64,000 nucleotides of DNA from Rhodoferax ferrireducens T118 (GTDB taxonomy: Bacteria > Pseudomonadota > Gammaproteobacteria > Burkholderiales > Burkholderiaceae_C), in contig NC_007908.1 in assembly GCF_000013605.1 (NCBI RefSeq), forward strand, positions 4,030,001 through 4,094,000. Reading direction: 5' to 3'. The position numbers were made by a program, and so were the translations under genes. Position 1 is the stretch's first letter; every line of letters begins with the position of its first letter. This document shows positions 17,383 through 57,908 of this stretch, piece by piece. The notes under the pieces were generated by a model. It was not told the DNA's origin and made no database searches. It saw only the letters and a program-made list of their open reading frames with translations.

Positions 17383-18444
17383 TTATTCCTTGATGGTGCA
17401 GATTTCACCCTTGCAGGCCACTTCGGCATCCAGGTACGACACGTTGACATAACCCTTGCGGCCCAGGATGTCGAAGGTCTTTTGACTCTTGGCGCCTGAC
17501 GCGCAATTGACGAAGACGGGAACGTCCTTGGGAATTTTGGCGTAATCTTTTTCCATCTCTTCAATGGGAAGGCTCACGGCCCCTTTGAAATGCCCCCGCG
17601 CATAGTCGGCGACCGGGCGCACGTCCAGGATGAACTTGCCCGCAGCCACCGCTTCTTCGAAGGCTTTTGGCGCGACCTGTCCCGGCCCGTAGACCGGTGC
17701 CCAGGTCACCGTCGTGAGCGCAGGCGCCATGGCGAGCGCGCCTTTCCAGGCACTCAAGGGAAAGTAGGCCAGCCGGCGGAAATCGCGTTCGCGCAGTTCT
17801 TCCAGCGTGGCATTGACCGCGTCCAGGTCACCGCGCCCAACGACGATGATGGGGGCATTTTTGGACAGCGTGCCCAGGGCGGTCTGGCCTGGGCTGCCCT
17901 TGAAGTCGCTGATGGAAAGCTGAACCAGCTTGTTCGATTCCGTCACGATGGTCTCTTTTCCTGGCGACGTGTCGATCAAAATCAGGTTGCCTTTTTGAAC
18001 GAATGACGCCTCGGCCAGAAGGGGCTGCGCTTTTTGCGTCCAGCCAGGGACACCGTTGCGGTAGACCCAGGCGTCGGCATAGCCCATCTTTCTGAAAATC
18101 TCAGCGGAGTCGACGGACAGCGTGCACTCTCTTCCCGCGCAGTAAAAAATGACTTTCCCGGTTTTGGGAATGCCCAGTTTCTCGGCGCTGGCGGCGTCTT
18201 TCCTCAACATGTCCAGCGGCAGACTCAGGGCGCCCGGGATGTGACCGGCGCTGTATTTTCCTGCCGGGCGGCTGTCAACGACCCAGACACTTTTTCCGAT
18301 CATTCCCTGCTCGAAATACGAGACCATCTGCTCGTTGGCTACTTCATTTGCTTCGAGCTGCTGCTCTGCCGCATGGGCATTCCAGCTTATTGCGGCCGAC
18401 AGAGTTGTTGCGACCAGGGCGACTGCCAAAATCAAGCGTTTCAT
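17383..18444 (-). CDS. Periplasmic triple-rhodanese-domain protein
   Basis: 353 residues from the ATG at 18444 (AGGAG upstream). A signal peptide (about 1-26, ending NAHAA) is followed by three rhodanese-like units. The first (~38-143) has Cys102 in YCAGREC. The second (~150-245) has a rhodanese outline but no active-site cysteine. The third (~258-345) has Cys314 in NCASGAKS. It should bind or transfer sulfane sulfur in the periplasm. As last gene of the octaheme cytochrome locus it may feed sulfane sulfur to, or take it from, the redox enzyme; this is inferred. Confidence 0.85.
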   Translation of the reverse strand: MKRLILAVALVATTLSAAISWNAHAAEQQLEANEVANEQMVSYFEQGMIGKSVWVVDSRPAGKYSAGHIPGALSLPLDMLRKDAASAEKLGIPKTGKVIFYCAGRECTLSVDSAEIFRKMGYADAWVYRNGVPGWTQKAQPLLAEASFVQKGNLILIDTSPGKETIVTESNKLVQLSISDFKGSPGQTALGTLSKNAPIIVVGRGDLDAVNATLEELRERDFRRLAYFPLSAWKGALAMAPALTTVTWAPVYGPGQVAPKAFEEAVAAGKFILDVRPVADYARGHFKGAVSLPIEEMEKDYAKIPKDVPVFVNCASGAKSQKTFDILGRKGYVNVSYLDAEVACKGEICTIKE

Positions 18445-18537
18445 GACGGAACTCCTTCCATGAGAGAGCGACACACTTTTCCGCTATCGCCACCCCGAGC
18501 GGCCGGGGAGCTTGACTGTTGGGGTGGCTGGGTGGGC

Positions 18538-18858
18538 TTAGCAGCCAGCCGTCTTCTTGAAGGACTTGGCCGTGTTCTTGCCGTCCTTCTCGAAGCGGGC
18601 GCGGATCTCGTCGCCTTCCACAATGCGCTTGTCCTTGAATTTGTCCAGGGTCAGGTCATCGGTGATGGTGATGGTGATGGGTGTACCGGCCTTGGTGTCC
18701 TTCAGAACGGCGGTGGCCGACTTGCCGTCGGCTGCCATCGTGATCTTGGTGATCGGGCCGACCATCTTGCCTTCGTCAGCCGCGGCGCTGCCGGCAAACG
18801 CCAGGCCAGCCAAAGCCAGCGTGATGGAAACAGCGACGGTGGAGAATTTGGTTTTCAT
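18538..18858 (-). CDS. Small periplasmic protein of unknown function
   Basis: 106 residues starting at the ATG at 18858, with AAGGATTTTGAA upstream. A signal peptide (1 to about 27, ending SAAA) is followed by a short lysine-rich domain predicted as beta strands (GPITKITMAADG, GTPITITITDD) and a single C-terminal Cys. I do not recognise the family. It lies between the outer-membrane barrel and the rhodanese gene, all read the same way, so it is probably part of the same exported redox system. Confidence 0.75.
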   Translation of the reverse strand: MKTKFSTVAVSITLALAGLAFAGSAAADEGKMVGPITKITMAADGKSATAVLKDTKAGTPITITITDDLTLDKFKDKRIVEGDEIRARFEKDGKNTAKSFKKTAGC

Positions 18859-18932
18859 TTCAAAATCCTTTGGTAAGTTAATAAATGCCCGTTGAGCGCA
18901 ATCGTTTGCGCTCAACGGCTTGGGTGGTCAAG

Positions 18933-20702
18933 TCAGAATTTGACTTCGAAGGTGGCGTACAGGTTGGTGGCGTTTTCCAGCGGTGTCGTGGTCATCATCT
19001 GGCCATTCACATCACCGATCGCCACTGGCGCGCCGACCCAGTTGTTGCTGCCGGTGTAGTCAAACTTGTAGTACTGCACCCCGAGACGGAAGAACGCCTT
19101 GCTGAAGAAGGACGAGATCGGTTTGCGGTCGAGCTCCTGAATGAAGTAGGCCTCAACCACATCGCCGCGCGTGCCGACCTTGGCGGTCCACATGTCATCG
19201 GCTGCCGGGGCGAAGGTGATCCAGTTCTTGGAGCCGTGGTTGTACTCAAGACCGAACTTCGAGTTCGATGGCAGGTCGTACCGCACGCCCAATGCAATCG
19301 CCGTGCCGGTCTTGCTGGTCGGTGCTTCGGGGCTGAAGAAGCCACCCGTCATCAAACCCTGGAAGCCGAACTGCGCCGAGACGTTCTGGTTCGGATGGGT
19401 GATGCTCACGCCCAAGTCACCAAAGACATTGAGTTTGCCCGGGCCAATGTTCTTGAACGTGCTCATGAAGCCCATGCCAAACCAGTCGATATCGCCCAGG
19501 TTGGTTTTTGCTGTGGTGTCGCCAAAGTAGGTTTTCCTCATCGTCGGCGCATCAAAGATGTTCATGCCGCGGTTCCATTGCAGCCAGACGCGCAGCGGGT
19601 CGGTGTCGATGGGAACAATCGCCACGCCGAGCATGTCGGTGTCCTTCAGCGAGTTGCCCCTCGGGTCCGTGAAGCCGTTCTCGAAGCCGCGGCCATAGCA
19701 GATCTTGGCATAGGCGCCCGGCCAGCCGTCGACGTCCGGCGCGTAGCCCACCGTCATGCCGTCAAAGGCGTAGTCCACCAGCATCGAGGGTGTGCCGCCG
19801 TTGCCGGGATTAGGCCGGTTGTCGCGCAGATTGCCCGGCGCGCCGCCCGTGGAGGGGCGCCGGCCAACCGATAGCCAGACCGGTTCGTCGCCGATGTTGC
19901 TCCAGGTGGCATAAACGCGGTCCACATTCAGCGCGCTGTTGGAGGGAACGTGCCCGAGCGTGCCGTCAAAGACACCCACGCGGTCGGCGAAGAACGGCGC
20001 GCTGCCCGCATTGGTGACCGAGCCCTCATCCTGCGAGCCGAACACTTTGTACATGTTCAGGTGCGCGTTGACGCTGATGTCCTGCGTCGCCTTGGCCCCC
20101 AGGTCCAGCCCGAAGCGGTTGCTGTACTGGCTGGTGTTCTTGGGTTTGTAGGCGGGCACCGTTGCGGCGAATGCCCCCATGGCACCCGCCATGGATGCAT
20201 TGGCTCCGAGGAAGGCGTTCGCCTGGTCATACGTGGCGACCTTGCCCATCGCTTGCGAGAAGCCCATCAAACCGGACAGCGCTTGGGCCGTGGTCCACGC
20301 CGGGTTGAGGCTTGAAGCCGCCGCAGGATTGGCAAAAAATTCACTCTGCAGCGTGTTCTGCGCGTTCATAAAGGTCGCGTTGACATCGGTGAAGGTCTTG
20401 CTCTGCCCCTCCAGACTGTCGAAACGGAAGCGGTAGTCACCGCCCACCGTCAGCCACTTGCTGAGCGACTTGCCCTCGAGCTTGGTGACCTGGTTCTTGA
20501 GGTCGGCCAGCTCGGTGGCCTGAGGCTGGGCTTGCGCCGCTTTTTGCTCATTGGCCGTGACCTGAGCCTTCAAAGCCTGAAGCTCGCGCGACAGGTCTTC
20601 AATCTTTTGCATCAAGTCGGCGTCCGCCGCGGAGGCGGCCAAAGGCAGCCACAGGCTCGCCACCAAAGTGACGAGTAACTTTTTTCTGAAAGCAACTTTC
20701 AT
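18933..20702 (-). CDS. Outer-membrane beta-barrel protein, DUF3373-like
   Basis: 589 residues from the ATG at 20702 (AGGGAAAT upstream). Order: signal peptide (~1-25, ending AASA), a coiled coil (~28-80, heptads in LSRELQALKAQV and LADLKNQVTKLEGK), then a long barrel with many alternating strands and a C-terminal Phe (ATFEVKF), the usual outer-membrane signature. It looks like DUF3373-type porins that accompany multihaem cytochromes. It sits directly after the membrane cytochrome b and could be the outer-membrane route for substrate or electrons. The function is inferred; haem motifs are absent. Confidence 0.8.
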   Translation of the reverse strand: MKVAFRKKLLVTLVASLWLPLAASAADADLMQKIEDLSRELQALKAQVTANEQKAAQAQPQATELADLKNQVTKLEGKSLSKWLTVGGDYRFRFDSLEGQSKTFTDVNATFMNAQNTLQSEFFANPAAASSLNPAWTTAQALSGLMGFSQAMGKVATYDQANAFLGANASMAGAMGAFAATVPAYKPKNTSQYSNRFGLDLGAKATQDISVNAHLNMYKVFGSQDEGSVTNAGSAPFFADRVGVFDGTLGHVPSNSALNVDRVYATWSNIGDEPVWLSVGRRPSTGGAPGNLRDNRPNPGNGGTPSMLVDYAFDGMTVGYAPDVDGWPGAYAKICYGRGFENGFTDPRGNSLKDTDMLGVAIVPIDTDPLRVWLQWNRGMNIFDAPTMRKTYFGDTTAKTNLGDIDWFGMGFMSTFKNIGPGKLNVFGDLGVSITHPNQNVSAQFGFQGLMTGGFFSPEAPTSKTGTAIALGVRYDLPSNSKFGLEYNHGSKNWITFAPAADDMWTAKVGTRGDVVEAYFIQELDRKPISSFFSKAFFRLGVQYYKFDYTGSNNWVGAPVAIGDVNGQMMTTTPLENATNLYATFEVKF

Positions 20703-20747
20703 GAGATTTCCCTGGTTAGTACAACAACAAAAACTCAACGTTCAGCA

Positions 20748-21374
20748 CTAGTGCCGTTTGCCCGGCATGGGTTCTTCAGCCGCAGCAAGATCCTCCCAGC
20801 CGGTCAGCATGGCCTTGACCTGCGAGGTGATCTTGTGGCCGGTGGTGGCGAGATACAGATGCGAGATCAGGAATGTCAGCATCAGGAAGGCGCCGAAAGT
20901 GTGTGCGGTGGCAATCCATTCCAACTGCAGTTTGCTCAGGCCCCAGGCCGCCCAGTCCGCATAAAAAAGGTAGAGCCAGCCGGTAAACCAGAGCAGCGGA
21001 CTGAGCAGTGTCAGCACGGCCAGATAGGTCAGCCGTTGCAGCGGGTTGTGCTTGTTGCTCAGGCTCGGACGGAACGGATGCGGCTCGTCCTTGAAGATGC
21101 CCGATGAGTAATATTTCGCAATGACAACGATATTTTTGGTAGTCGGGATGTAATGCCGCCATTCGCCGGTGGTGATATGCCAGAAGGCGGCAAAAATCCA
21201 CAGTCCCACCAGCGTCCAGGCGGCGATGGTGTGGTAGTTGACTGCCTTTTCGAAGCCGAAGACGGAATAGGTTCCATGCACCTCGAAGCCGGTCAGCAGC
21301 ATGAAAATGATCAATGCTGCCTGGCACCAGTGCCAGAGCCGCTCGAATGGTTTGAAGAGATAGACGCGTGACAT
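20748..21374 (-). CDS. Membrane di-haem cytochrome b (b561/Ni-Fe-hydrogenase cytochrome b type)
   Basis: 208 residues with four or five transmembrane helices and paired histidines suitable for two b-haems (WHWCQ, NYHTIAAW, FWHITTGEW, TAHTFGAF, ISHLYLA). It would take electrons from the quinol pool and pass them to the periplasm. The gene follows the octaheme cytochrome by 14 bases and precedes the outer-membrane barrel, so it is the obvious quinol-side partner of the octaheme protein. Confidence 0.85.
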   Translation of the reverse strand: MSRVYLFKPFERLWHWCQAALIIFMLLTGFEVHGTYSVFGFEKAVNYHTIAAWTLVGLWIFAAFWHITTGEWRHYIPTTKNIVVIAKYYSSGIFKDEPHPFRPSLSNKHNPLQRLTYLAVLTLLSPLLWFTGWLYLFYADWAAWGLSKLQLEWIATAHTFGAFLMLTFLISHLYLATTGHKITSQVKAMLTGWEDLAAAEEPMPGKRH

Positions 21375-21388
21375 GAAGGTTCTCCCGG

Positions 21389-23005
21389 TTAGCTATTGCG
21401 TTTGTTCACGATGATGCGGACCAGGCCGTGGCCCAGGACGCCGAGCAAGGTCAGGGCAGCAAGAAGCCAGCCACCGATTTCAAGCCAGCGGGCATGGTCG
21501 CGACTGCGACCCGGCATATAGACGCCGTCAATCTTGTCCAGCCGACCGACCTTGGCGTGGCACGCCACACAGCCCAGCGCTTTTTCTTTCGGTGCCACCA
21601 TGTGATTGATCGCCCACATGCTTTCGGTTTCGATGAAATCGACCTTGCCGGAGAACTTGACGCCGCCTTTGGCCATGCCCTCGGTGACCGCTTTGACCCA
21701 GTCCAGGTTCTTCCAGAAGGCGGTGTCGTCATTGCCCGCCAGGTGGGTGATGACCAGCGACTTGTTGATCGGGTCATATTGCTGCTTGCCGCGGAACAGC
21801 TTGATCGGCCAGATCATCGACTTGCCATCGGTGGCACTGCCCTCAAAGCCGTTGATCTGAACCGGCTTGTCGCCCTTCTCGATCTTGTCGGTGATCAGGG
21901 TGTATTTGTTCGTGCCATTGAACCAGACGTATTCGGGTGTGACGTTCTCTGCCCACTTGAAATCGCCCTTGATCGTCATGTAGGTGTCGTAGTCGTTTTC
22001 GTCCCGGATGGTCTGGAACTTGCCATCCTTGTCCAGCTTGCCGGCGGTAGACCAGTCCCACGACATCTTGGTCGGGACACCGCCGCGCGCAAAGGCCGGG
22101 ATGTGGCAGGTCTGGCAGGCGATCTTGGCGGTGTGCTCATTGAGCCTGACGATCTGGTGCGGTGCTTGGCCGTGGCAGGCCTGGCAGGTGTCAGGGCTGG
22201 TCTTGTCGGCCTCGCCGCGCATGTGCGCCGGTGCCTTGTCCTTGGCCGTGGGGGCGTAGCGGCTGCCGGAGACCTTGTGATCATCGGTCTTGTGGCAGGT
22301 GGCGCAAGAAAAATTCAGCCCCTTGGTGTCCATGTGCACGTCCAGCGCCTTGTCAGGGTTTTCCAGAGAACTGTCCAGATCACCGTGTTTGACACCATCA
22401 CCGCCGCCGCCCTTGAAGTGGCAGGCACCGCAAGTGTTACGCGTGGTGGGCCCGACCTTCTGGGCGATTTCTTTCAGGTTGATGCCCTTGATGATCTTGC
22501 CCGAGCCCGCCGGAAACTCGGTGTCCCGGGCGACCGGGTTGCCGGCAAAACCACTCGGCTTGGTGTACTTGCCGGTGTGGTCATGGCAGGCCAGGCAGTC
22601 GACGTTTTCTTCCACGGTGAAGTCAAACTTGGCGTCCTTCCAGCCATAGCCAATATGGCAACTGTTGCAAGCGGCCTCATTCGACCTGACCGAGGTGCAG
22701 AAATTGTTGACAACATGCTTCTTGCCTAACACTTGCTTGGTGTCGGGGTTGATGAACTCCCACTTCCAGTGCTGTGTCTGGTGAATTTGTTTGGCAGCCT
22801 CGGTATGGCAACTCAGGCAAGCCTTGGTCACCTCCGGGCCGGAAGCAAAATCCTGATCCAGGATCTTGAACTTGCTGTGGTCAGCTGTTGTTTGCAACTT
22901 TGCCGGGGTCCCGGCTACGGCCGGTGCTGGCTTGGTGGCCGCCGGTGCTGCCACGGCAAAAAAGAGAGCTGCCAGGGCTGCAACCAGTAGATATCGACTA
23001 CGCAT
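21389..23005 (-). CDS. otr: Octaheme c-type cytochrome, tetrathionate reductase family, with C-terminal membrane anchor
   Basis: 538 residues from the ATG at 23005 (GAGGAG six bases upstream; a TTG directly before it also keeps the frame). A signal peptide (~1-24) is followed by exactly eight CxxCH haem sites, starting at residues 63, 113, 137, 192, 234, 274, 297 and 479. The spacing, with one haem far downstream, fits the Shewanella octaheme tetrathionate reductase family. Lys146 or Lys149, just after the third site, are candidates for the unusual lysine haem ligand known in that enzyme (inference). A transmembrane helix at ~507-532 anchors it. Substrate may be tetrathionate, nitrite/hydroxylamine or another sulfur compound. 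First gene after an FNR-type promoter. Confidence 0.88.
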   Translation of the reverse strand: MRSRYLLVAALAALFFAVAAPAATKPAPAVAGTPAKLQTTADHSKFKILDQDFASGPEVTKACLSCHTEAAKQIHQTQHWKWEFINPDTKQVLGKKHVVNNFCTSVRSNEAACNSCHIGYGWKDAKFDFTVEENVDCLACHDHTGKYTKPSGFAGNPVARDTEFPAGSGKIIKGINLKEIAQKVGPTTRNTCGACHFKGGGGDGVKHGDLDSSLENPDKALDVHMDTKGLNFSCATCHKTDDHKVSGSRYAPTAKDKAPAHMRGEADKTSPDTCQACHGQAPHQIVRLNEHTAKIACQTCHIPAFARGGVPTKMSWDWSTAGKLDKDGKFQTIRDENDYDTYMTIKGDFKWAENVTPEYVWFNGTNKYTLITDKIEKGDKPVQINGFEGSATDGKSMIWPIKLFRGKQQYDPINKSLVITHLAGNDDTAFWKNLDWVKAVTEGMAKGGVKFSGKVDFIETESMWAINHMVAPKEKALGCVACHAKVGRLDKIDGVYMPGRSRDHARWLEIGGWLLAALTLLGVLGHGLVRIIVNKRNS

Positions 23006-23075
23006 CAAGAACTCCTCGCTTTACAGGCGGTAGTGCCCAGTTGCGATAGCGAACCAGCAACACTATTAGGGTAAA

Positions 23076-23116
23076 TACTAATATTTGTCGCTATGTAAAG
23101 TTCTGATGTAGATCAA
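23076..23116 (-). promoter_or_regulatory. FNR-type class II promoter of the octaheme locus
   Basis: CTGAT-GTAG-ATCAA at 23103-23116 matches nine of ten positions of the FNR consensus TTGAT-N4-ATCAA. On the minus strand a -10-like TAGTAT lies at 23081-23076, placing the box centre about 41.5 bases from the implied start of transcription near 23068, the classical activator position. Confidence 0.65.
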
Positions 23117-23249
23117 TGTATTTGTATGTGCTTATAGATGTGTGTGCTTATTTACAGATGCGGTTATCTGCTACCGCGCACGAATTAGCCGATAAAAATG
23201 TGGTCAACAGCCGCCGCCAGCCAAGCATGTGGCGGCGCGCAAGCAGCCG

Positions 23250-23612
23250 CTAGTGGGCCGTGCCGATCATGGCGGCCTTGAAATTGCCTTCTGTCTCGAT
23301 CTTGGTGCAGACAGCGCGGCAGAGCGCCGGTATCCGCTCATCGATGATGCGGTAATAGATTTGCACGCCATCACGGCGTTTGCCGAGCACCCCATGTCGA
23401 TACAAGGTGTTCAGGTGCTGCGACATATTGGGCTGGGTGGTGCCTATTTTGCTGAGCAAATAGCTCACGTTCTTTTCGCCGTCGCACAGGCAACTGATGA
23501 TCTTCAGGCGCATCGGTGCCGACATGACCCGAAACAACTCGGCGGCCAGCTCAAATACTTCGTCTGGTCGATCGAGATCGGAGGGGATGGGTTGTGCTTT
23601 AAGCTTTGTCAT
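23250..23612 (-). CDS. ArsR/SmtB-family winged-helix regulator, cysteine-containing
   Basis: 120 residues from the ATG at 23612; the frame is open upstream to 23696 but the extra part is not family-like. The HTH is TTQPNMSQHLNTLYRHGVLG (residues ~58-77), followed by a wing with DGVQIYYRI. Cys41, Cys43, Cys98 and Cys102 could form a metal or reactive-sulfur sensing site, somewhat as in SqrR/BigR sulfide regulators, although the spacing is not identical. It is co-oriented with and upstream of the octaheme gene, with a 244-base gap that carries the FNR box and two direct repeats of TGTGCTTAT at about 23127 and 23144. Confidence 0.85.
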   Translation of the reverse strand: MTKLKAQPIPSDLDRPDEVFELAAELFRVMSAPMRLKIISCLCDGEKNVSYLLSKIGTTQPNMSQHLNTLYRHGVLGKRRDGVQIYYRIIDERIPALCRAVCTKIETEGNFKAAMIGTAH

Positions 23613-37782: not shown

Positions 37783-39150
37783 ATGAGCCCCAGCACCAAA
37801 AATTCATTCACACCACCGGGTCAGGCGCCTGACTCAGCGCCTGGCACAGCACTTTTGCCGAGCCGCAGCGCGGCCGAGTTCCTGAACCAGGACTGCTTTT
37901 GCCGCACCCTGAACCAGGGCCGCCTGCGCGAGCAGATTGAGCGCGACCCCTGCCTCCAGGGTCTGATGCAAAGCATCACCCAAACGCGACCGCACCTGTT
38001 CTCGTCCACCGTTGTTTTCTTGGCCAGCGAGATGGCCCAAAAGATGGCAGCCACGATCGCCGCCATTGAGCGTGTGATCGGCTTGCCGGGCTACCAGGCC
38101 CAGGCCTTGGCGCGTGCGCCAGCGATTGCCCAGTACGCTTTTGGCCCGATCGGGGCCTGCATGGGTTTTGACTTTCATCTGGGCGTGCAGGGGCCGCAGC
38201 TGATCGAGATCAACACCAATGCCGGTGGCGCCTTGCTCAATGTGGCACTGGCGCGGGCGCAGGAGGCTTGTTGCGAGGAAATGGACTGGGCCTTTGCCCC
38301 AAAAGCCTCGCCCGACACCCTGGAGCAAACATTTTTTGACATGTTCGCGTCTGAGTGGCAGCACCAGCGCGGCAACGCTGCCTTGGGCTACGTCCTGATC
38401 GTGGACGACGACCCAGCCGCGCAGTACCTGGCGCCCGAGTTTGAGTTGTTCCGGCAATTGTTCATCCGCCACGGCGTGGCCGCCAGCGTGGCCGACCCGT
38501 CGGAGCTGGCTTGGCGCGACGGCAAGCTCTGGCACGGGGCTCGGGTGGTGGACCTGGTCTACAACCGCCTGACTGATTTCTACCTGGCCGAGCCGGGACA
38601 CCAGGCCCTGAAAAGCGCCTATGAAGCGGGCGCCGTGGTATTGACGCCGCACCCACGCTCGCACGCCCTGCATGCCGACAAGCGCAACCTGATCGCGCTC
38701 AGCCAGGATGATTTACTGGCCACCTGGGGCGCCTCCAGCGCCGACCGCCGCCTGTTGCAGGCGGGCGTGCCGCAGACCCAGCTGGTGACACCCGAGCGCG
38801 CCGATGCCTTGTGGGCCAGTCGCCGCCAACTCTTTTTCAAGCCGGTCGGCAGCTTTGGCGGCAAGGCCGCTTACCGCGGCGACAAGCTGACGCGCCGGGT
38901 CTGGGGCGAGATTCTGGCCGGCGACTTTGTGGCGCAGGCCCTGGTGCCGCCCGGCCAGCGCCTGATTGAAGTCGATGGCGTGTTGACCGACCTGAAGTTT
39001 GACCTTCGCGCCTACACCTACTGCGGGGCCGTCCAGTTGCTGGCGGCGCGCATGTACGCCGGGCAAACCACCAACTTCCGCACCGAGGGGGGCGGCTTTG
39101 CGCCGGTGATCGTGGTGCCGCCGCACAGCCAGGACATGGAAGCGCGCTGA
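37783..39150 (+). CDS. ATP-grasp-like protein of unknown function, coupled to an asparagine synthetase
   Basis: About 455 residues from the ATG at 37783 (an in-frame TTG lies at 37765). The C-terminal half resembles an ATP-grasp ligase: LFFKPVGSFGGKAAYRGDKL (residues ~346-366), FVAQALVPPG, DLKFDLRAYTY, and TTNFRTEGGGFAPV. The N-terminal half has a distinct domain with FDFHLGVQGPQLIEINTNAGG. I do not know a named family. Its TGA overlaps the ATG of the asparagine synthetase gene (39148-39152), so both proteins are made together and probably act in one pathway, perhaps amide or dipeptide formation. Confidence 0.7.
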   Translation: MSPSTKNSFTPPGQAPDSAPGTALLPSRSAAEFLNQDCFCRTLNQGRLREQIERDPCLQGLMQSITQTRPHLFSSTVVFLASEMAQKMAATIAAIERVIGLPGYQAQALARAPAIAQYAFGPIGACMGFDFHLGVQGPQLIEINTNAGGALLNVALARAQEACCEEMDWAFAPKASPDTLEQTFFDMFASEWQHQRGNAALGYVLIVDDDPAAQYLAPEFELFRQLFIRHGVAASVADPSELAWRDGKLWHGARVVDLVYNRLTDFYLAEPGHQALKSAYEAGAVVLTPHPRSHALHADKRNLIALSQDDLLATWGASSADRRLLQAGVPQTQLVTPERADALWASRRQLFFKPVGSFGGKAAYRGDKLTRRVWGEILAGDFVAQALVPPGQRLIEVDGVLTDLKFDLRAYTYCGAVQLLAARMYAGQTTNFRTEGGGFAPVIVVPPHSQDMEAR

Positions 39151-40937
39151 TGTGCGGCATTTGCGGTGAATTGCGTTTTGACGGCGCCGCGCCGGATCTG
39201 GCAGCCATTGCGCGCATGTCAGCGCAACTGGCGCGCCGTGGGCCGGATGACGCGGGCACTTACCAGAATGGCCCGCTGGCGTTTGGCCACCGGCGCCTGT
39301 CCATCATTGACTTGTCAGCTGCGGCGCACCAGCCGATGGTGGACGCTGCGCTGCAGTTGGCGCTGGTTTTTAACGGCACGATTTACAACTACCGGGAGTT
39401 GCGCGACGAGTTGCTCAGCATGGGCTACACGTTTTTTTCGGAAGGCGACAGCGAAGTCATCCTGAAGGCCTACCACGCCTGGGGCGACCAATGTGTCAAG
39501 CGCTTTATTGGCATGTTTGCCTTTGCCATCTGGGATCAGCGCAGCGACCAGCTGTTTCTGGCACGGGACCGCTTTGGCATCAAGCCCCTGTACCTGAACC
39601 AGACCGGTCAACGCCTGCGCTTTGCGTCCAGCCTGCCCGCGCTGCTGGCGGGCGGCGGGGTGGACACCACGCTCGATGCGGTGGCGTTGCACCACCACTT
39701 CACCCTGCACACGGTGGTGCCCGCGCCGCGCACGGTGCTCCAGGGCGTGCGCAAACTGCCACCCGCGTCGACCTTGCGGCTGGAGCCGGACGGCACCAGC
39801 ACCCAGCAGGTTTACTGGACACTGGACGCGACACGGCCGGACAAGGCGCTGTCCGAGGCCCAATGGCTGGCCGCCACGCGCGCGCAACTCGCTCTTAGCG
39901 TCAAACGCCGCCTGCTGGCAGCGGACGTGCCGGTCGGTGTGCTGCTCTCGGGCGGGCTCGATTCCAGCCTGCTGGTCGGACTGCTGGCAAGCCAGGTGCC
40001 TGATTTGCGCACCTTCTCGATCGGTTTTGAAGGCGTGGGCGCAGGGTCGGAAAAAGCCGACGAATTTGAATACTCTGACCAAATTGCCCAGCAATTTCAC
40101 ACCCGGCATCACCAGTTCAGCATTCCCAACCATGAAGTGATGCAGCGCCTGCCGGAAGCCGTCGCACAAATGACCGAACCGATGGTCAGCCACGACGTGA
40201 TTGCGTTTTACTTGCTGGCCGAGCGGGTTTCCAAAGAAGTCAAAGTGGTGATGTCCGGCCAGGGCGCCGACGAGGTATTTGGCGGCTACTTCTGGTACCC
40301 CAAGATGGACGCCGCCCAGGGCTCGCCTTTGGCGCGCTTCAGCCAGCACTACTTTGACCGCGACCATGCTGAATATCTGCAAATGATCGCCCCCGCCTTT
40401 CAGGTCGGCGATGTCACATCCAAGCTGATTGCCGGCGAACTGAGCAAACCACAAGCCGACACTTTTCTGGACCAGGTCTGGCGGCTCGATGCCACCACGC
40501 TGATCGTGGACGACCCGGTCAAGCGCGTGGACAACATGCCGATGGCCTGGGGCCTGGAGGTGCGCGTGCCGTTTCTGGACCACGAACTGGTGGAACTGGC
40601 GGCGCACATGCCACCCGAACTCAAACTCAAGGAAGGCGGCAAGTTTGCACTCAAAGCGATCTCTCGCGGGCTGATTCCAGACGCGGTGATTGACCGGCCC
40701 AAAGGCTACTTTCCGGTGCCCGCGCTCAAATACGTGCGCGGCCCCTTTCTGGAACTGATGCGAGGCATTCTGATGTCGCACGCCTGCATCGAGCGCGGGC
40801 TGTACCAGCGCGAGTACGTGAACAAACTGCTGGCCGATCCGGAAGCACCCGAGCACTTCACCCGCATCCAGGGCAGCAAGCTATGGCACCTGGCGCTGCT
40901 GGAGTGGTGGCTGCAGGTGCACGTGGACAATTTGTAA
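39150..40937 (+). CDS. Asparagine synthetase (glutamine-hydrolysing), NAGGN amidotransferase-like
   Basis: 595 residues. The N-terminal glutaminase starts MCGICGELRFDG with the Cys2 nucleophile, and the synthetase half has the PP-loop LLSGGLDSSLL and SGQGADEVFGGYF. The overall sequence resembles the amidotransferase of the N-acetylglutaminylglutamine amide (NAGGN) osmolyte system more than AsnB of central metabolism (from memory, not tested). The usual NAGGN partners, a fused acetyltransferase/ATP-grasp and an M42 peptidase, are not present; instead the overlapping gene encodes a shorter ATP-grasp-like protein. Confidence 0.88.
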   Translation: MCGICGELRFDGAAPDLAAIARMSAQLARRGPDDAGTYQNGPLAFGHRRLSIIDLSAAAHQPMVDAALQLALVFNGTIYNYRELRDELLSMGYTFFSEGDSEVILKAYHAWGDQCVKRFIGMFAFAIWDQRSDQLFLARDRFGIKPLYLNQTGQRLRFASSLPALLAGGGVDTTLDAVALHHHFTLHTVVPAPRTVLQGVRKLPPASTLRLEPDGTSTQQVYWTLDATRPDKALSEAQWLAATRAQLALSVKRRLLAADVPVGVLLSGGLDSSLLVGLLASQVPDLRTFSIGFEGVGAGSEKADEFEYSDQIAQQFHTRHHQFSIPNHEVMQRLPEAVAQMTEPMVSHDVIAFYLLAERVSKEVKVVMSGQGADEVFGGYFWYPKMDAAQGSPLARFSQHYFDRDHAEYLQMIAPAFQVGDVTSKLIAGELSKPQADTFLDQVWRLDATTLIVDDPVKRVDNMPMAWGLEVRVPFLDHELVELAAHMPPELKLKEGGKFALKAISRGLIPDAVIDRPKGYFPVPALKYVRGPFLELMRGILMSHACIERGLYQREYVNKLLADPEAPEHFTRIQGSKLWHLALLEWWLQVHVDNL

Positions 40938-40942
40938 GGCTT

Positions 40943-40997
40943 TTTGGCCTCTAGCCCCTACCGAACGGGCATAATATGCTATCTTATTAATAGCAAT
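40943..40997 (-). repeat. Dispersed intergenic repeat, copy 7 (inverted)
   Basis: On the minus strand, GCTATTAATAAGATAGC is followed by a GGTAGGGGCTAGAGGCC block. It lies between the asparagine synthetase stop and mnmD. Confidence 0.65.
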
Positions 40998-41014
40998 TGG
41001 TAGATTGAAAACGT

Positions 41015-41764
41015 ATGCACACACCGCCGCCCGAGCCCGTTGACTGGCAAGACGACACCCCGCGCAGCCGCCGCTTTGATGATATTTACCGCGCCCGCTC
41101 AAACGCGCTGGCCCAATCGCGCTCGGTTTTTCTGGCGGGTTGCGGACTGCCGGAGCGCTGGCGCGACCGGGATCAATTCACCGTGCTGGAGACCGGATTT
41201 GGCCTGGGGCTCAATTTTTTGACCACCTGGGCCACGTGGCTGGCTGACCCACAAGCCTGCCACACGCTCAACTTCGTCTCGGTTGAAGCCTATCCGGTGA
41301 GTTTTGAAGACATTTTGCGCAGTACGCGGGCGCTCGCAACGGCTGCCGACGCCGCCAGCGACCTGGCCGCACAAATGCCCTTGCTCGCGCAACAACTCGC
41401 TCTATTTTGGCCAGGCATCCAACCCGGCCTGAACCAGTGCTCGTTGGCGCAAGGTCGCGTTCAATTGACGCTGTGTGTCGGCGACGTACTGGCCATGCTG
41501 CAGCAGTGGCCGGGTCAAGCCGATGCCGTCTATCTGGACGGCTTCAGCCCCGCAGTGAACCCTGACATGTGGTCAAGCGCCACCCTGGGCGCGGTGGCGC
41601 AGCACTGCCACAGCGGCACCCGGCTTGCCACCTACACGGTGGCGGCTCAGGTTCGCCGCCGCTTCACCGAGCTCGGTTTCAGCGTTGAAAAGTGCCCCGG
41701 TGTGCCGCCCAAACGTGACCGGCTACAGGTGCATGTGGCCCATGCGCACTCCAAAACAGACTAA
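41015..41764 (+). CDS. mnmD: tRNA 5-methylaminomethyl-2-thiouridine methyltransferase domain protein MnmD
   Basis: 249 residues, the methyltransferase half of MnmC without the FAD oxidase half. Motifs: SRRFDDIYRA near the start, the SAM loop ETGFGLGLNFL, and ADAVYLDGFSPAVNPDMW, the family signature. It adds the final methyl group to mnm5s2U34 in tRNA wobble positions. A stand-alone form is known in several bacteria. The gene appears monocistronic, preceded by a dispersed repeat. Confidence 0.9.
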   Translation: MHTPPPEPVDWQDDTPRSRRFDDIYRARSNALAQSRSVFLAGCGLPERWRDRDQFTVLETGFGLGLNFLTTWATWLADPQACHTLNFVSVEAYPVSFEDILRSTRALATAADAASDLAAQMPLLAQQLALFWPGIQPGLNQCSLAQGRVQLTLCVGDVLAMLQQWPGQADAVYLDGFSPAVNPDMWSSATLGAVAQHCHSGTRLATYTVAAQVRRRFTELGFSVEKCPGVPPKRDRLQVHVAHAHSKTD

Positions 41765-46077: not shown

Positions 46078-46239
46078 TCAAGCCCGCTCGTACCAGCCCT
46101 TGGATCGGTTCACGACGTTCACCACCAGCAGCATCACCGGCACCTCAATCAGCACACCCACCACGGTTGCCAGTGGCGCACCGGAATTGAAACCAAACAG
46201 GCTGATGGCTGCCGCAACGGCCAGCTCGAAGAAGTTGGA
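46078..46239 (-). pseudogene. 3' fragment of an acr3 arsenite-transporter gene
   Basis: Minus-strand translation [20 protein letters not shown], then [16 protein letters not shown] and a SKGWYERA end, copies the last ~53 residues of the intact Acr3 at 53712. The DNA is similar but not identical, and similarity stops abruptly near 46239. The open frame extending to 46374 is unrelated. It is a partial duplicate in the same orientation, or the relic of a second arsenic operon. Confidence 0.75.
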
Positions 46240-46494
46240 CTCATAACTCCCATCACTTTTCACGCGCTGCAATGGTTCGCCAGCGGTATGGGCATCAGTT
46301 AAAGGACTATTCCCCCAATTGGGTGAATCATGGAAATGATAGCTTCCTCTACACAACCGAAGTTCACATCGCAACCTTGTTGACCTTCAATTTTGACGGT
46401 TGAATCCAAGACCCATTGCTGACATGGAGTTTGCCAAACTGCCTTCTGCAAACCCGACATTGGAATAGTTGTAAAAATCGAGCCGGATTGGGAT

Positions 46495-53711: not shown

Positions 53712-54779
53712 TTAGCCTCTCTCGTACCACCCTTTCGAGTTGTTGACAATGTGTACCACCAGCAGCATCACCGGCACCTCAATCAGCACACCGACCACCG
53801 TGGCCAGTGCCGCACCGGAATTGAAGCCAAACAGGCTGATGGCTGCCGCCACGGCCAGCTCGAAGAAATTGGAGGCCCCGATCAAGGCGGACGGGCAGGC
53901 GATATTGTGCTTCTCGCCCAGCGCGCGGTTGAGCAGATAGGCCAGGCCTGAGTTGAAAAACACCTGGATCAAAATCGGCACCGCCAGCAGGGCAATGATG
54001 AGCGGCTGCTTCAAAATGGCCTCGCCCTGAAACGCAAACAGCAGCACCAGCGTGGCCAGCAGTGCGGCAATCGACCACGGACCCATTTTTTCCATCGCCG
54101 CATCGAACGCCGTCTGGCCCCGGCCCAGCAGCGACCTGCGCAAAAGCTGGGCGATGATGACCGGAATCACAATGTACAGCCCGACCGAGATCAGCAGCGT
54201 GGCCCATGGCACGGTGATGGCCGAGAGACCGAGCAAAAACGCCACCAGCGGCGCATAGGCCACGATCATGATGCCGTCGTTCAAGGCCACTTGCGACAGG
54301 GTGAAAAGCGGGTCGCCGTTGGTGAGACGGCTCCAGACGAAGACCATGGCGGTGCACGGCGCGGCGGCCAGCAAAATCAAACCGGCAATGTAGCTGTCGA
54401 TCTGATCTGGCGGCAGCAGCGGTGCAAACAGGTGACGAATAAACAACCAGCCCAGAAACGCCATGCTGAAGGGCTTGACCAGCCAATTCACGAACAGCGT
54501 GACACCGATGCCGCGCACGTGTTTGCCCACCTCGCGCAGGGCGGAAAAATCGACCTTGAGCAGCATCGGGATGATCATCACCCAGATCAGAACGCCCACC
54601 GGCAAGTTGACCTTGGCCACTTCCATGCGCCCAATGGCCTGAAACACGTCTGGCAGCACCTGGCCCAGCGCAATGCCCGCGACGATGCACAAAAACACCC
54701 ACACCGTCAGATAGCGCTCAAACACACTCATCGGTGCACCAGCCGCGCGTTTGCCAGTCACTTCACATTGGGCACTCAT
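53712..54779 (-). CDS. acr3: Acr3-family arsenite efflux transporter
   Basis: 355 residues with ten transmembrane helices of the BASS/Acr3 fold. The essential cysteine lies in AAPCTAMVFVWS and the C-terminus reads [19 protein letters not shown]. It extrudes As(III). AAGGAG lies before the ATG at 54779. It is last in the order arsR-arsC-arsD-arsA-acr3, with arsA only three bases away. ArsA normally partners ArsB, so its pairing with Acr3 makes this an energised Acr3 system. Confidence 0.93.
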   Translation of the reverse strand: MSAQCEVTGKRAAGAPMSVFERYLTVWVFLCIVAGIALGQVLPDVFQAIGRMEVAKVNLPVGVLIWVMIIPMLLKVDFSALREVGKHVRGIGVTLFVNWLVKPFSMAFLGWLFIRHLFAPLLPPDQIDSYIAGLILLAAAPCTAMVFVWSRLTNGDPLFTLSQVALNDGIMIVAYAPLVAFLLGLSAITVPWATLLISVGLYIVIPVIIAQLLRRSLLGRGQTAFDAAMEKMGPWSIAALLATLVLLFAFQGEAILKQPLIIALLAVPILIQVFFNSGLAYLLNRALGEKHNIACPSALIGASNFFELAVAAAISLFGFNSGAALATVVGVLIEVPVMLLVVHIVNNSKGWYERG

Positions 54780-54782
54780 GGT

Positions 54783-56552
54783 TCACGCTCCTTGTTTTGA
54801 CAAAAGTTGCAGCCGCTGCATGCCAATCGGTTCGTCTTTCAAGAGCGGTACCAGCGCATAGCGACTGGCGTGGTGGGTCGCAACGGCCGCAATCTCACGC
54901 AACTCGTTGTGAGCTCGTGCTTGTAGCAAAGGCGATGTCACGGCAGCTGCCGCGACACTGTTGTTGATGACCCAGGCCCAGGGCTCAATGCCGGCGCGAC
55001 GCAAATCGGTTTGCAGATTGGCCGCCTCCAGCACCGGCGTGGTCTCGGCCAGCGTGACGATCAGCACCTTGGTTTGCCTGGGGTCCTGCAACTGCATCAT
55101 GGGCGTGGTGAAGTGCCTGCCGCTGCTGCCCATCTGGCGCGCGACGTCGCGGTGGTAGGCGCCGGTGGCGTCGAGCAGCAGCAGCGTGTGACCGGTAGGC
55201 GCGGTGTCCATCACCACAAACTTCTTGCCAGCCTCACGGATCACGCGCGAGAAGGCCTGGAACACCGCGATTTCTTCCGTGCAGGGCGAGCGCAGGTCTT
55301 CTTCCAGCACGGCGCGGCCAGCGGCATCGAGCTTGGCCCCTTTGCTGGCCAGCACTTGCGCGCGGTAGTGCTCGGTGACTTCATGCGGGTCGATGCGGCT
55401 GACCGTCAGATGTTCCAGCGTGCCGTCCAGCGTTTCCATCAGGTGCGCGGCCGGGTCGGAGGTCGTCAGGTGCACGGGCAGGCTGCGCGTGGCCAGCTCC
55501 ACTGCGACAGCCGCAGCGAGCGTGGTTTTACCGACGCCGCCTTTGCCCATCAGCATGACCAGCCCGTGGCCCTCCCGCGCTATGGCCTCGACCAGGGAGG
55601 CCAGGCTGGGAGCGCTGATAGGGGGTGCACCAGGCGGTACGTCCGCTGCCGTCGGCACTGCGGGTTCGGCCGCCGCCAGCAGCTGACGCAAAGGCGCCAG
55701 CCCGACCAGATTAAACGCCTTGAGTCCGATTTGATCGGTGGGCAAGTCGCGCAACGCGTCAGGCAAGTTCGCCAACACGGCCTGCTCGCGATCAAAAATA
55801 GCCTGTGCCAGCGCATCGTGGACGGTTTCGGACTCCGGGAACACACCGTTGATCACCAGATACTGCTTCGACAGGCCAATACCCGCCAGCTCGCCATGCG
55901 TGCGGGCTGCTTCATTTAAAGTAGCTGCTTGCGCCCGTGCCACAAGGATCAGACGGGTTTTCAATGGGTCGGCCAGGGCATCCACCGCCGCCTTGTACTG
56001 GGTGCGCTGCTTTTCAAGTCCTGCCAGTGGGCCCAGGCAAGAGGCGTCGCCCTTGCCGTCTTCCAGAAAACCGCTCCAGGCACCGGGCAACTGCAACATA
56101 CGGATGGTGTGGCCGGTCGGGGCGGTGTCGAAAATGATGTGGTCAAAATTCTGCGTGAGCGCGCCATCCGTGAGCAGCGCAGTGAATTCGTCAAACGCGG
56201 CAATCTCGGTGGTGCAGGCGCCCGAGAGCTGCTCTTCAATGCCCTTGACCACGGCATCAGGCAGCACCCCGCGCACCGGGCCGACGATGCGGTCGCGGTA
56301 GGCTTGGGCAGCCGCTTGCGGGTCGATCTCCAGGGCGCTCAAATTTGGCACCTCAGCCACGTTGGTGATCTGGTTGCCGATGCGGATGCCAAACACCTGC
56401 CCCACGTTGGAGGCTGGGTCGGTGCTGACCAGCAAGACGCGTTTGTTCAAGCGTGTGAGTTCCAGTGCGCTGGCGCAGGCGATGGATGTTTTGCCGACAC
56501 CGCCCTTGCCGGTGAAGAACAAAAAACGCGGGGCTTGATCAAGGAATTTCAT
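54783..56552 (-). CDS. arsA: Arsenical pump-driving ATPase ArsA
   Basis: 589 residues with two homologous ATPase halves. Walker A is GKGGVGKT in both (residues ~15-22 and ~335-342), and DTAPTGHT occurs in each half, the ArsA signal-transduction motif. It hydrolyses ATP to drive As(III) export through Acr3, with ArsD as metallochaperone. A linker (~290-320, Ala/Pro-rich) joins the halves, as in E. coli ArsA. It lies between arsD and acr3 in the same direction. Confidence 0.94.
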   Translation of the reverse strand: MKFLDQAPRFLFFTGKGGVGKTSIACASALELTRLNKRVLLVSTDPASNVGQVFGIRIGNQITNVAEVPNLSALEIDPQAAAQAYRDRIVGPVRGVLPDAVVKGIEEQLSGACTTEIAAFDEFTALLTDGALTQNFDHIIFDTAPTGHTIRMLQLPGAWSGFLEDGKGDASCLGPLAGLEKQRTQYKAAVDALADPLKTRLILVARAQAATLNEAARTHGELAGIGLSKQYLVINGVFPESETVHDALAQAIFDREQAVLANLPDALRDLPTDQIGLKAFNLVGLAPLRQLLAAAEPAVPTAADVPPGAPPISAPSLASLVEAIAREGHGLVMLMGKGGVGKTTLAAAVAVELATRSLPVHLTTSDPAAHLMETLDGTLEHLTVSRIDPHEVTEHYRAQVLASKGAKLDAAGRAVLEEDLRSPCTEEIAVFQAFSRVIREAGKKFVVMDTAPTGHTLLLLDATGAYHRDVARQMGSSGRHFTTPMMQLQDPRQTKVLIVTLAETTPVLEAANLQTDLRRAGIEPWAWVINNSVAAAAVTSPLLQARAHNELREIAAVATHHASRYALVPLLKDEPIGMQRLQLLSKQGA

Positions 56553-56615
56553 GTGAATACTTTCGGTACAGCTAACAACAGTCGCTGTGACTCCGACGAA
56601 GGGAATCCAGCCCGC

Positions 56616-56999
56616 TTAGCAGCAAGCACCACCCGAGCAGCAGTTGCCGGAGGGCGCGGCTTGCGGGTCAGCAGCGGGCAATTCAGAAGCTGATGCCACG
56701 GCACCCAGCCATCGGCCCAGGTCATCACGCGTGGGATAACGCCCGGCAAAAGCCACTTCACCGTCCACCAGTGTGATCGGCAAGGCGGCCTCACCCGAGC
56801 GCTCCAGCAGACCCTTCACCACCGCACTGTCGGCAAAGGCCATGGGCTGCTGCGCCAGGTTGAAGCGTTCAATTTGCAGCCCATTTTGTTGGGCCCAATC
56901 GACGTCGGCCGAGAAAGTGACCAAGGCCTGGTCAACGTCGGTGCCGCAAACGCCGCTGCTGCAACACAGGGCCGGGTCAAATACTTGCACTTTTTTCAT
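56616..56999 (-). CDS. arsD: Arsenic metallochaperone ArsD
   Basis: 127 residues from the ATG at 56999; the open frame upstream is not coding. All three cysteine sets known in ArsD are present: Cys12, Cys13 and Cys18 in ALCCSSGVCG, Cys120-Cys121 and Cys126-Cys127 at the C-terminus (NCCSGGACC). It delivers As(III) to ArsA and weakly represses the operon. 63 bases before arsA. Confidence 0.92.
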   Translation of the reverse strand: MKKVQVFDPALCCSSGVCGTDVDQALVTFSADVDWAQQNGLQIERFNLAQQPMAFADSAVVKGLLERSGEAALPITLVDGEVAFAGRYPTRDDLGRWLGAVASASELPAADPQAAPSGNCCSGGACC

Positions 57000-57027
57000 G
57001 ATGAATTCCTTGGGTATAAAAATCGAC

Positions 57028-57510
57028 TCAACCCGGCAGCAAAGTGCCAATGTGATCCAGCTCGACCTTGAGCTTTTGCGGGTAGTGCTGCAGCGCATCC
57101 AGCGGCAGCGCCAAAAAAGCTTCAATGCGCGCGCGCAAGATGCGGTAGGCCGTCATGAAGGCGGCATCAATTTCTGCGTCGGTGCCGACGGCGTGCACCG
57201 GGTCCTCGACACCCCAGTGGGTGCGCAACACCGGGCCCAGGTAAGCCGGGCAGACTTCACCGGCGGCGTTGGCACACACGGTAACCACAATGTCTGGCGT
57301 TTGCGGCAAGTTGTCCCACGACTTGCTGGCAGAGCCTGCAGTCGCAATGCCCTCACGCGCCAGCAAGGCCAGTGAGCGCGGATGCACATAGCCGCTGGGG
57401 TGACTGCCCGCGCTCATGGCGTGCCAGCCTTTGGGTGCCAGGTGATTGAACGTGGCCTCGGCCAGGATCGAGCGGCAGGAATTACCGGTACACAAAAAGA
57501 GAATATTCAT
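57028..57510 (-). CDS. arsC: Arsenate reductase, low-molecular-weight phosphatase type
   Basis: 160 residues with the P-loop CTGNSCRS (Cys7) at the N-terminus, as in LMW-PTPase arsenate reductases, and a conserved Asp in VEDP around residue 107. Cys79 and Cys86 in VCANAAGEVCP are candidates for the disulfide relay. It reduces As(V) to As(III) for export. It lies between arsR and arsD, all in one direction. The thioredoxin- or mycothiol/glutathione-linked subtype is not decided by sequence alone. Confidence 0.9.
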   Translation of the reverse strand: MNILFLCTGNSCRSILAEATFNHLAPKGWHAMSAGSHPSGYVHPRSLALLAREGIATAGSASKSWDNLPQTPDIVVTVCANAAGEVCPAYLGPVLRTHWGVEDPVHAVGTDAEIDAAFMTAYRILRARIEAFLALPLDALQHYPQKLKVELDHIGTLLPG

Positions 57511-57578
57511 GATTCAGACAGAAGTGACGTTGGGGGATTGGAGAACGCGGTCCGGCTCAGGAATGACCCAGGAAACCA

Positions 57579-57908
57579 TCAGGCGCAAACCGGCGCCAGG
57601 CAAATCTCGGCGCACTGCTCGGGGTGGCCGGCGCAGCACTCGGCGGTCAGATAGCCGATCAGCTCTTGCATCAATGCCAGGTTGGCGCGGTACCTTTGAT
57701 AACGCCCTTCCTGCACCACTGACACAAGCTGCGCGTGCGCCAAGGCCTTCAGGTGAAACGACAGATTGGTCGGCGGCACCTCCAGCGCGCTGCCAATTTC
57801 TCCCGCCACCAAACCCTGCGGCCCGGTTTTGACCAGCAGACGGTAAATATCCAGGCGCACACCCGAGGCGAGCGATTCAAAAATGGTGATGGCGAGTGAT
57901 TTGTCCAT
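57579..57908 (-). CDS. arsR: ArsR-family arsenic-responsive repressor
   Basis: 109 residues from the ATG at 57908; residues upstream in the frame are outside the family. HTH in LEVPPTNLSFHLKALAHAQL and wing in VSVVQEGRYQRY. The C-terminus has ECCAGHPEQC and further cysteines, similar to the As(III) site in the Acidithiobacillus-type ArsR rather than the ELCVCDL motif of plasmid R773. A palindromic operator at 57913-57940 overlaps its own promoter region, so autoregulation of the arsR-arsC-arsD-arsA-acr3 operon is expected. Confidence 0.9.
   Translation of the reverse strand: MDKSLAITIFESLASGVRLDIYRLLVKTGPQGLVAGEIGSALEVPPTNLSFHLKALAHAQLVSVVQEGRYQRYRANLALMQELIGYLTAECCAGHPEQCAEICLAPVCA

Follow-up and report, generated by a model that had tools for sequence, protein, structure and literature searches.

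What is the substrate of a membrane-anchored octahaem cytochrome of the tetrathionate-reductase family (OTR), and what do the exported proteins encoded beside it contribute? The octahaem enzyme is thought to split sulfur-sulfur bonds. The question is raised by a stretch of 64,000 nucleotides from Rhodoferax ferrireducens T118 (NC_007908.1, positions 4,030,001 to 4,094,000 of the forward strand; "the window" below), whose host genome comprises 4.97 Mb in two contigs. In it six codirectional genes on the minus strand encode an ArsR-type regulator, the octahaem cytochrome, a cytochrome b561, a DUF3373 porin, a small exported protein (here SMALL), and an exported rhodanese. An earlier sequence-only reading had given these positions and the shared direction correctly and had proposed a possibly undescribed sulfur-respiration module. 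The genes are indeed a real, recurring sulfur-redox module. What is new here is that octahaem-b pairs are often accompanied by one of three unrelated exported proteins that end in cysteine, and we take the terminal cysteine of SMALL as the main clue to the function of the set.

Recurrence of the gene set

A search with TIGR04315 through 399 genomes of the order gave matches in 41 genomes; in 35 of these the cut-off was exceeded, by 43 hits in all. Forty stretches holding 41 of these 43 hits were fetched; one hit is the window's own, and G302 was left out of the counts. These 40 stretches, 80 named loci and the window make up a set of 121 loci, in which near relatives dominate because the named loci are the best 80 of at least 581 confirmed. 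The set contains 123 octahaem proteins, or 121 rows after removal of duplicates (L052/L125 and L060/L117). Gene calls were made for this analysis.

The full order octahaem cytochrome, cytochrome b, porin, SMALL, rhodanese is found on five other contigs (L074, L075, L076, L077 and L079), and its first four genes in L058, L061 and L078, the contig of L078 ending there. An additional exported rhodanese-like protein comes next in L074, L076, L077 and L079, and a DsrE-like protein is encoded in L074 and L079. The most constant element is the pair: where the DNA extends far enough downstream, a cytochrome b gene comes next on the same strand in 104 of 108 cases (all except L056, L073, L129 and L131). 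The gene order, whose recurrence the sequence-only reading had named as the check on its proposal, thus recurs, and the arrangement is far above chance. DUF3373 was found in 7 of the 399 genomes, in 6 of which the porin gene lies near an octahaem gene (co-occurrence by genome, Fisher p 2e-6); in L064 and L065 the nearby porin gene is on the opposite strand. Around the porin gene of the lone DUF3373 locus (G387; L163) tblastn gave no other module gene.

In other relatives the octahaem-b pair is combined either with a monohaem cytochrome, a YeeE/YedE protein and a rhodanese or with an upstream DUF302 gene. Among the 81 loci whose flanks exceed 2.5 kb on the upstream side and 4.5 kb on the downstream side, the partner is DUF302 in 19, the cytochrome in 17, SMALL in 12, and cytochrome plus SMALL in one, with none of these in 32. 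The three types keep different company within 7 kb: YedE or rhodanese is present in 17/17 cytochrome loci and the porin in 11/12 SMALL loci, and porin, YedE or rhodanese in 0/19 DUF302 loci. The plasmid loci inspected (three of five plasmid hits, from Paracoccus and Photobacterium) have octahaem and cytochrome b genes and no partner. On the Paracoccus megaplasmid pFER4 (L199) the pair stands directly after an annotated suf iron-sulfur assembly cluster, and on pPAN3 (L200) after a gene resembling the same cysteine desulfurase.

The sulfur-related neighbours in relatives belong to the rhodanese, YeeE/YedE, DsrE, TsdA or SoxYZ families; the NCBIfam model nearest to the YeeE/YedE proteins is the thiosulfate transporter TsuA, far under its cut-off. 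SoxY was found in 33/35 octahaem genomes versus 214/364 others (247/399 overall; p 6e-6). Together with the constancy of the cytochrome b gene, these data support well the earlier proposal of a quinol-linked sulfur-redox module.

Three unrelated partners with a terminal cysteine

SMALL, the DUF302 proteins and the monohaem cytochromes are all exported, and all end in cysteine or in cysteine plus one residue: 15/15 for SMALL, 34/34 for DUF302, and 30/30 for the cytochrome (33 DUF302 proteins and 29 cytochromes without duplicate rows). Among unlabelled neighbours a terminal cysteine occurs in only 27/1289, namely 9/520 within 3.5 kb and 18/769 farther away. The chance of three Cys-ending families among 11 neighbour families is 0.0013. 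In 14 of the 15 SMALL proteins the cysteine is the only one, and among the matches listed for SMALL homologues, all of them close relatives, it is terminal in 120/120. The DUF302 tails are glycine-rich arms with a cysteine end, and they are not a general property of DUF302 proteins: among the 30 matches listed from 24 genomes, the tail is present in 3/3 beside an octahaem gene and in 0/27 elsewhere. One DUF302 protein encoded away from the octahaem gene, in L189, ends in KCMCCGH.

Kinship of SMALL with the other partners was considered and rejected. Pairwise comparison of the profiles of the three families indicated no kinship (hhalign probability at most 3.9 %; SMALL reaches 0.7 % with DUF302 and 3.9 % with the cytochrome). 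SMALL matched no family in Pfam and NCBIfam profile searches, and its comparison with solved structures gave nothing under E 0.18. Since three unrelated exported families beside the octahaem gene all end in cysteine, the pattern suggests that the partners may be SoxY-like sulfur carriers for the octahaem enzyme. The cysteine on a terminal arm that such a carrier would need is present in SMALL.

On a tree of the 121 octahaem proteins, which is a quick one without bootstrap, partner kind requires 10 changes, compared with a mean of 59.3 after shuffling (0/200 shuffles as low). SMALL rows are nested in the clade with cytochrome partners; the cytochrome rows L052, L083 and L094 stand among the SMALL rows, L057 carries both partners, and the 33 partner-free rows are mostly in branches of their own. 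We read this topology as a probable replacement of the haem partner by a haem-free protein that retained the terminal cysteine.

Further candidates for module parts did not hold. In the partner-free loci 0/13 genes read end in cysteine. In L058 and L080, SMALL is followed by HDOD, ABC permease, CutA and DsbD-like genes, which on inspection by eye look like ordinary neighbours.

The redox proteins, the porin and the rhodanese

The positions of the features are collected in Table 1. The octahaem start was set at the ATG at 23005; the listed open reading frame opens with TTG at 23008.

Table 1. Features of the octahaem gene set (window positions, from the regulator to the rhodanese)
Feature	Position	Strand	Evidence or remark
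ArsR/SmtB-type regulator, CLC and CRAVC cysteines	23250..23612	-	HTH_metalloreg 73 bits, cut-off 55
FNR-like box TTGATCTACATCAG	23103..23116	-	One mismatch to TTGATN4ATCAA; begins 111 bases before octahaem start
Octahaem cytochrome, membrane-anchored, tetrathionate-reductase family (OTR)	21389..23005	-	TIGR04315; 1SP3; 8 CxxCH
Codon of haem-free cysteine C104 (539-aa numbering)	22697..22699	-	Aligns with residue 64 of 1SP3
Codon of K207	22388..22390	-	Aligns with residue 153 of 1SP3
Membrane subunit of cytochrome b561 type, probably facing quinol	20748..21374	-	PF01292 4.1e-26
Outer-membrane porin, DUF3373	18933..20702	-	PF11853 3.4e-152; PDB 10aw profile match
SMALL, 106-aa exported protein, sole cysteine = last residue	18538..18858	-	Matches no known family
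Terminal cysteine codon of SMALL, TGC then TAA	18541..18543	-	Open reading frame translation
Exported rhodanese, two cysteine-bearing domains and intervening stretch without cysteine loop	17383..18444	-	PF00581, two stretches

The assignments of the sequence-only reading to an OTR-family cytochrome with a C-terminal anchor, a membrane b protein, an outer-membrane barrel, a small exported protein, and an ArsR-type cysteine regulator in front were all confirmed. The octahaem protein scores 642.2 bits against TIGR04315 (cut-off 375), aligns with structure 1SP3 at E 3e-111, and has eight haem sites and a hydrophobic C-terminal stretch; of 42 listed octahaem proteins, all but those of L056 and L073 show such a tail (40/42). 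Over the 121 rows, CxxCH is counted eight times in 115, seven times in five, and six times in one. The column of C104 has cysteine in 120/121 rows and a gap in one, and that of K207 lysine in 121/121. Residue 153 of 1SP3 is, we assume, the lysine ligand of haem 2 in OTR, and Cys64 presumably lies near that haem. The cytochrome b, encoded from 14 bases past the octahaem end, reaches 92.3 bits against PF01292 (gathering cut-off 30.1).

The porin scores 507.7 bits against PF11853 (DUF3373; gathering cut-off 26.1) and has a profile match of 1.3e-11 to PDB 10aw, a "50 kDa outer membrane protein"; DUF3373 has been grouped with an 18-strand porin family (PMC4827864). The rhodanese had been described as an exported triple rhodanese. 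Exported it is; Pfam PF00581 gives only two stretches, and a loop pattern search only two cysteine loops, YCAGREC and NCASGAKS, with none in the stretch between. The rhodanese of L075 (7075-8316) has an extra N-terminal stretch that by eye is somewhat SMALL-like.

A possible carrier-bound substrate

With a probability of roughly 45 %, we read the genes as encoding an anoxia-linked periplasmic sulfur-redox unit, the substrate of which would be carrier-bound sulfur and/or free polythionate. Electrons from ubiquinol would reach the membrane-anchored octahaem protein by way of cytochrome b561, and the lysine-ligated haem beside the haem-free cysteine of this protein would reduce a sulfur-sulfur bond. 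The substrate would resemble tetrathionate: free polythionate entering through the porin, an S-sulfonate or persulfide that SMALL carries on its terminal cysteine, or both. SMALL would thereby act as a swinging-arm carrier in the manner of SoxY. The exported rhodanese would receive sulfane sulfur, and ArsR may sense sulfane sulfur through its thiols.

The link to anoxia comes from FNR-like boxes (at most one mismatch), which suggest anoxic use. They are found at 8/14 SMALL loci (p 2e-6) and 10/28 cytochrome loci (p 2e-5), as compared with 23/361 other genes. As to the regulator, the ArsR proteins encoded directly beside SMALL-type octahaem genes have LCxxVC in 7/7 and a cysteine before a DGE-like turn in 6/7 cases; the ArsR of L085, encoded two genes away, has neither. 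The window's ArsR scores 59.3 bits with the BigR model NF040642, under its cut-off of 155.

It should be noted that several observations weigh against this reading. The cysteine pattern was noticed prior to testing, and members of a family have common ancestry. None of the three partners is present in the 32 well-covered loci mentioned above, and these loci, together with the plasmid loci of Paracoccus and Photobacterium, in which octahaem and b stand alone, indicate that the octahaem enzyme can do without a partner. FNR-like boxes are also enriched at partner-free loci (7/33 versus 23/361, p 0.008) and are not clearly enriched at DUF302 loci (5/32 versus 23/361, p 0.066). The ArsR cysteine is displaced by one position from the BigR cysteine, which is aligned with a serine. 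The same search for SoxY gave no hit in the window genome, one of two such among the 35 octahaem genomes. And in vitro, nitrite is a further substrate of octahaem homologues (PMC6449678).

The carrier reading can be put in a stronger form, which we consider doubtful: the octahaem enzymes of sulfur bacteria would have as their natural substrate sulfane sulfur or thiosulfonate bound to an exported carrier protein at its terminal cysteine, tetrathionate being a mimic. An equally tentative extension is that the carrier would have been swapped among DUF302, monohaem cytochrome, SMALL, and the SoxY of lucinid symbionts, with the cysteine arm kept. In these symbionts SoxY-S3, a swinging-arm carrier with a C-terminal cysteine, is encoded beside otr and soxZ (PMC11237559). 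We count this adjacency as independent support for the carrier reading. The difference is that SoxY belongs to another family, the place of which is here taken by SMALL, DUF302 or the monohaem cytochrome.

Tetrathionate or nitrite

One rival reading is plain respiration of tetrathionate. The free compound would be imported by the porin and reduced to thiosulfate with electrons passing from quinol through cytochrome b to the octahaem protein, and the rhodanese would use the thiosulfate; SMALL would be an assembly or docking factor with a structural cysteine. In favour of this, the Beggiatoaceae homologue BOGUAY_2386 reduces tetrathionate at rates that reach 93 umol per min per mg (PMC6449678), and the expression of otr in sediment goes up with tetrathionate (PMC8528874). 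The occurrence of partner-free loci is in keeping with this, as is the window genome, among the nine molybdopterin-family proteins of which none is over the cut-off for TtrA, nor for PhsA. Such a simple respiration leaves unexplained why three unrelated neighbour proteins have a terminal cysteine and why DUF302 proteins have it only beside octahaem genes, and we consider it somewhat unlikely.

In vitro, OTR and the Beggiatoaceae enzyme act on nitrite as well, reducing it (PMC4484225, PMC6449678). Since the window genome has narG (NarG is over its cut-off, as is arsenite oxidase), the main task could be the reduction of nitrite or hydroxylamine to ammonium, the sulfur genes being incidental. 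The rate of the Beggiatoaceae enzyme with nitrite is, however, only 1.3, far under that with tetrathionate (PMC6449678), and the recurrent neighbours are sulfur-transfer proteins rather than nitrogen genes, which makes a nitrogen function very improbable.

The Shewanella OTR is of the same family as the window's enzyme, with eight haems and with the residues aligned to 64 (Cys) and 153 (Lys) retained; it differs in that the window protein has a membrane anchor and a cytochrome b partner of its own. The electron routes to the Shewanella OTR have been termed unknown, and STC binds OTR (PMC4484225).

In the arsenite oxidase region of the window genome (L198; G000:C2:3416000-3435800), the large subunit scores 1277.7 bits with TIGR02693. 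A second molybdopterin enzyme is encoded about 11 kb off with an iron-sulfur protein adjoining, and its best NCBIfam match is PhsA (272.6 bits, cut-off 694).

Sox genes and the direction of electron flow

The frequency of SoxY in octahaem genomes allows the opposite direction to be considered, in which the octahaem protein of sulfur oxidisers would oxidise thiosulfate or carrier-bound sulfane sulfur and deliver the electrons via cytochrome b to quinone. The surroundings of the module in L059, where SoxY, SoxZ, a sulfide dehydrogenase flavoprotein, two sulfate permeases, and an iron-sulfur and anchor pair are encoded, would also fit. SoxYZ is nevertheless not a general neighbour: in only two of the 121 loci, L059 and L116, does SoxY lie within 4 kb of the octahaem gene. 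The thiosulfate/tetrathionate couple is a high-potential couple, and quinone is therefore a poor acceptor. The FNR-like boxes, pointing to anoxic use, and the window genome, lacking a SoxY hit, likewise speak against oxidation, which we regard as improbable.

Relation to known gene clusters

The module had been called possibly undescribed. This has to be qualified, as octahaem with cytochrome b and otr beside soxY have already been described; the part that stands concerns the porin-SMALL-rhodanese set and the terminal cysteines, for which no description was found in the open-licence literature, outside of which most subscription journals lie. As here, Thermosulfurimonas dismutans has an OTR with a nearby cytochrome b (PMC4911364), and a thiosulfate-reductase-type cytochrome b is encoded downstream of the octahaem gene in Beggiatoaceae (PMC6449678); a porin, a small protein and a rhodanese, all of which the window has, are not mentioned in the accessible descriptions (PMC4911364, PMC6449678).

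A comparable parts list is that of Geobacter extHIJKLMNOPQS, with ExtH rhodanese, ExtI porin, ExtJ of 104 aa, multihaem cytochromes, and cytochrome b clustered (PMC5877670); parts lists alone were compared. The porin of the ExtHIJ-KL set affects selenite and tellurite reduction (PMC5877670), and arsenite oxidase is present in the window genome, so that a selenite, tellurite or arsenic-sulfur system akin to ExtHIJ-KL was considered. ExtI is, however, classed with the phosphate-selective porins and the window porin with DUF3373, the Geobacter cluster has more cytochromes (PMC5877670), and the recurrent neighbours of the octahaem genes are sulfur genes. A metalloid function is the least probable of the explanations weighed here.

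Two sulfur clusters share single elements with the module. The YTD cluster of sulfur disproportionators, which also contains TusA and conserved hypothetical proteins (PMC12998232), resembles those relatives in which the octahaem gene has neighbours of the YedE and DsrE families; it differs from the window, among ten proteins of which a Pfam scan found no YedE, TusA or DsrE. In the window genome YeeE/YedE was matched only with in-frame stops. The Tso selenoprotein operon has the ArsR-type TsoR and a rhodanese-DsbD fusion with UxxxxU (PMC13188914). The window rhodanese and ArsR match its models weakly (56 versus a cut-off of 805 bits and 45 versus 115 bits, respectively), and no selenocysteine was seen in the window proteins. 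The selenoprotein table of the same paper includes a TIGR04315 octahaem protein, WP_331457571.1 (PMC13188914).

Neighbouring genes in the window

Upstream of ArsR and codirectional with it lies a nitroreductase gene (24393-23746); among the gene maps of relatives, a nitroreductase gene ahead of ArsR was found only in L074. An MlaC gene on the plus strand forms the boundary of the set. By eye, an arsenic-resistance-like set (ArsR-like, ArsC of the low-molecular-weight phosphatase-like kind, ArsD-like, ArsA-like ATPase, ACR3-like permease) was recognized at 53712-57908, with a permease fragment at 46078-46263, and an asparagine synthase-like protein amid a row of genes of unclear role at 39150-41764.

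Implications

A DUF302 protein of unknown function has been noted inside sox clusters (PMC5037610). If the carrier reading is true, a function would be suggested for the DUF302 proteins of sulfur bacteria, and there would be a common logic for the co-recurring rhodanese, YedE, porin and octahaem genes. Should its stronger form be true, Sox would be joined by a second periplasmic sulfur pathway that depends on a carrier. If the carrier thiol is the site of the substrate, the long-unclear physiological role of the octahaem OTR would become testable on one cysteine of a 106-residue protein.

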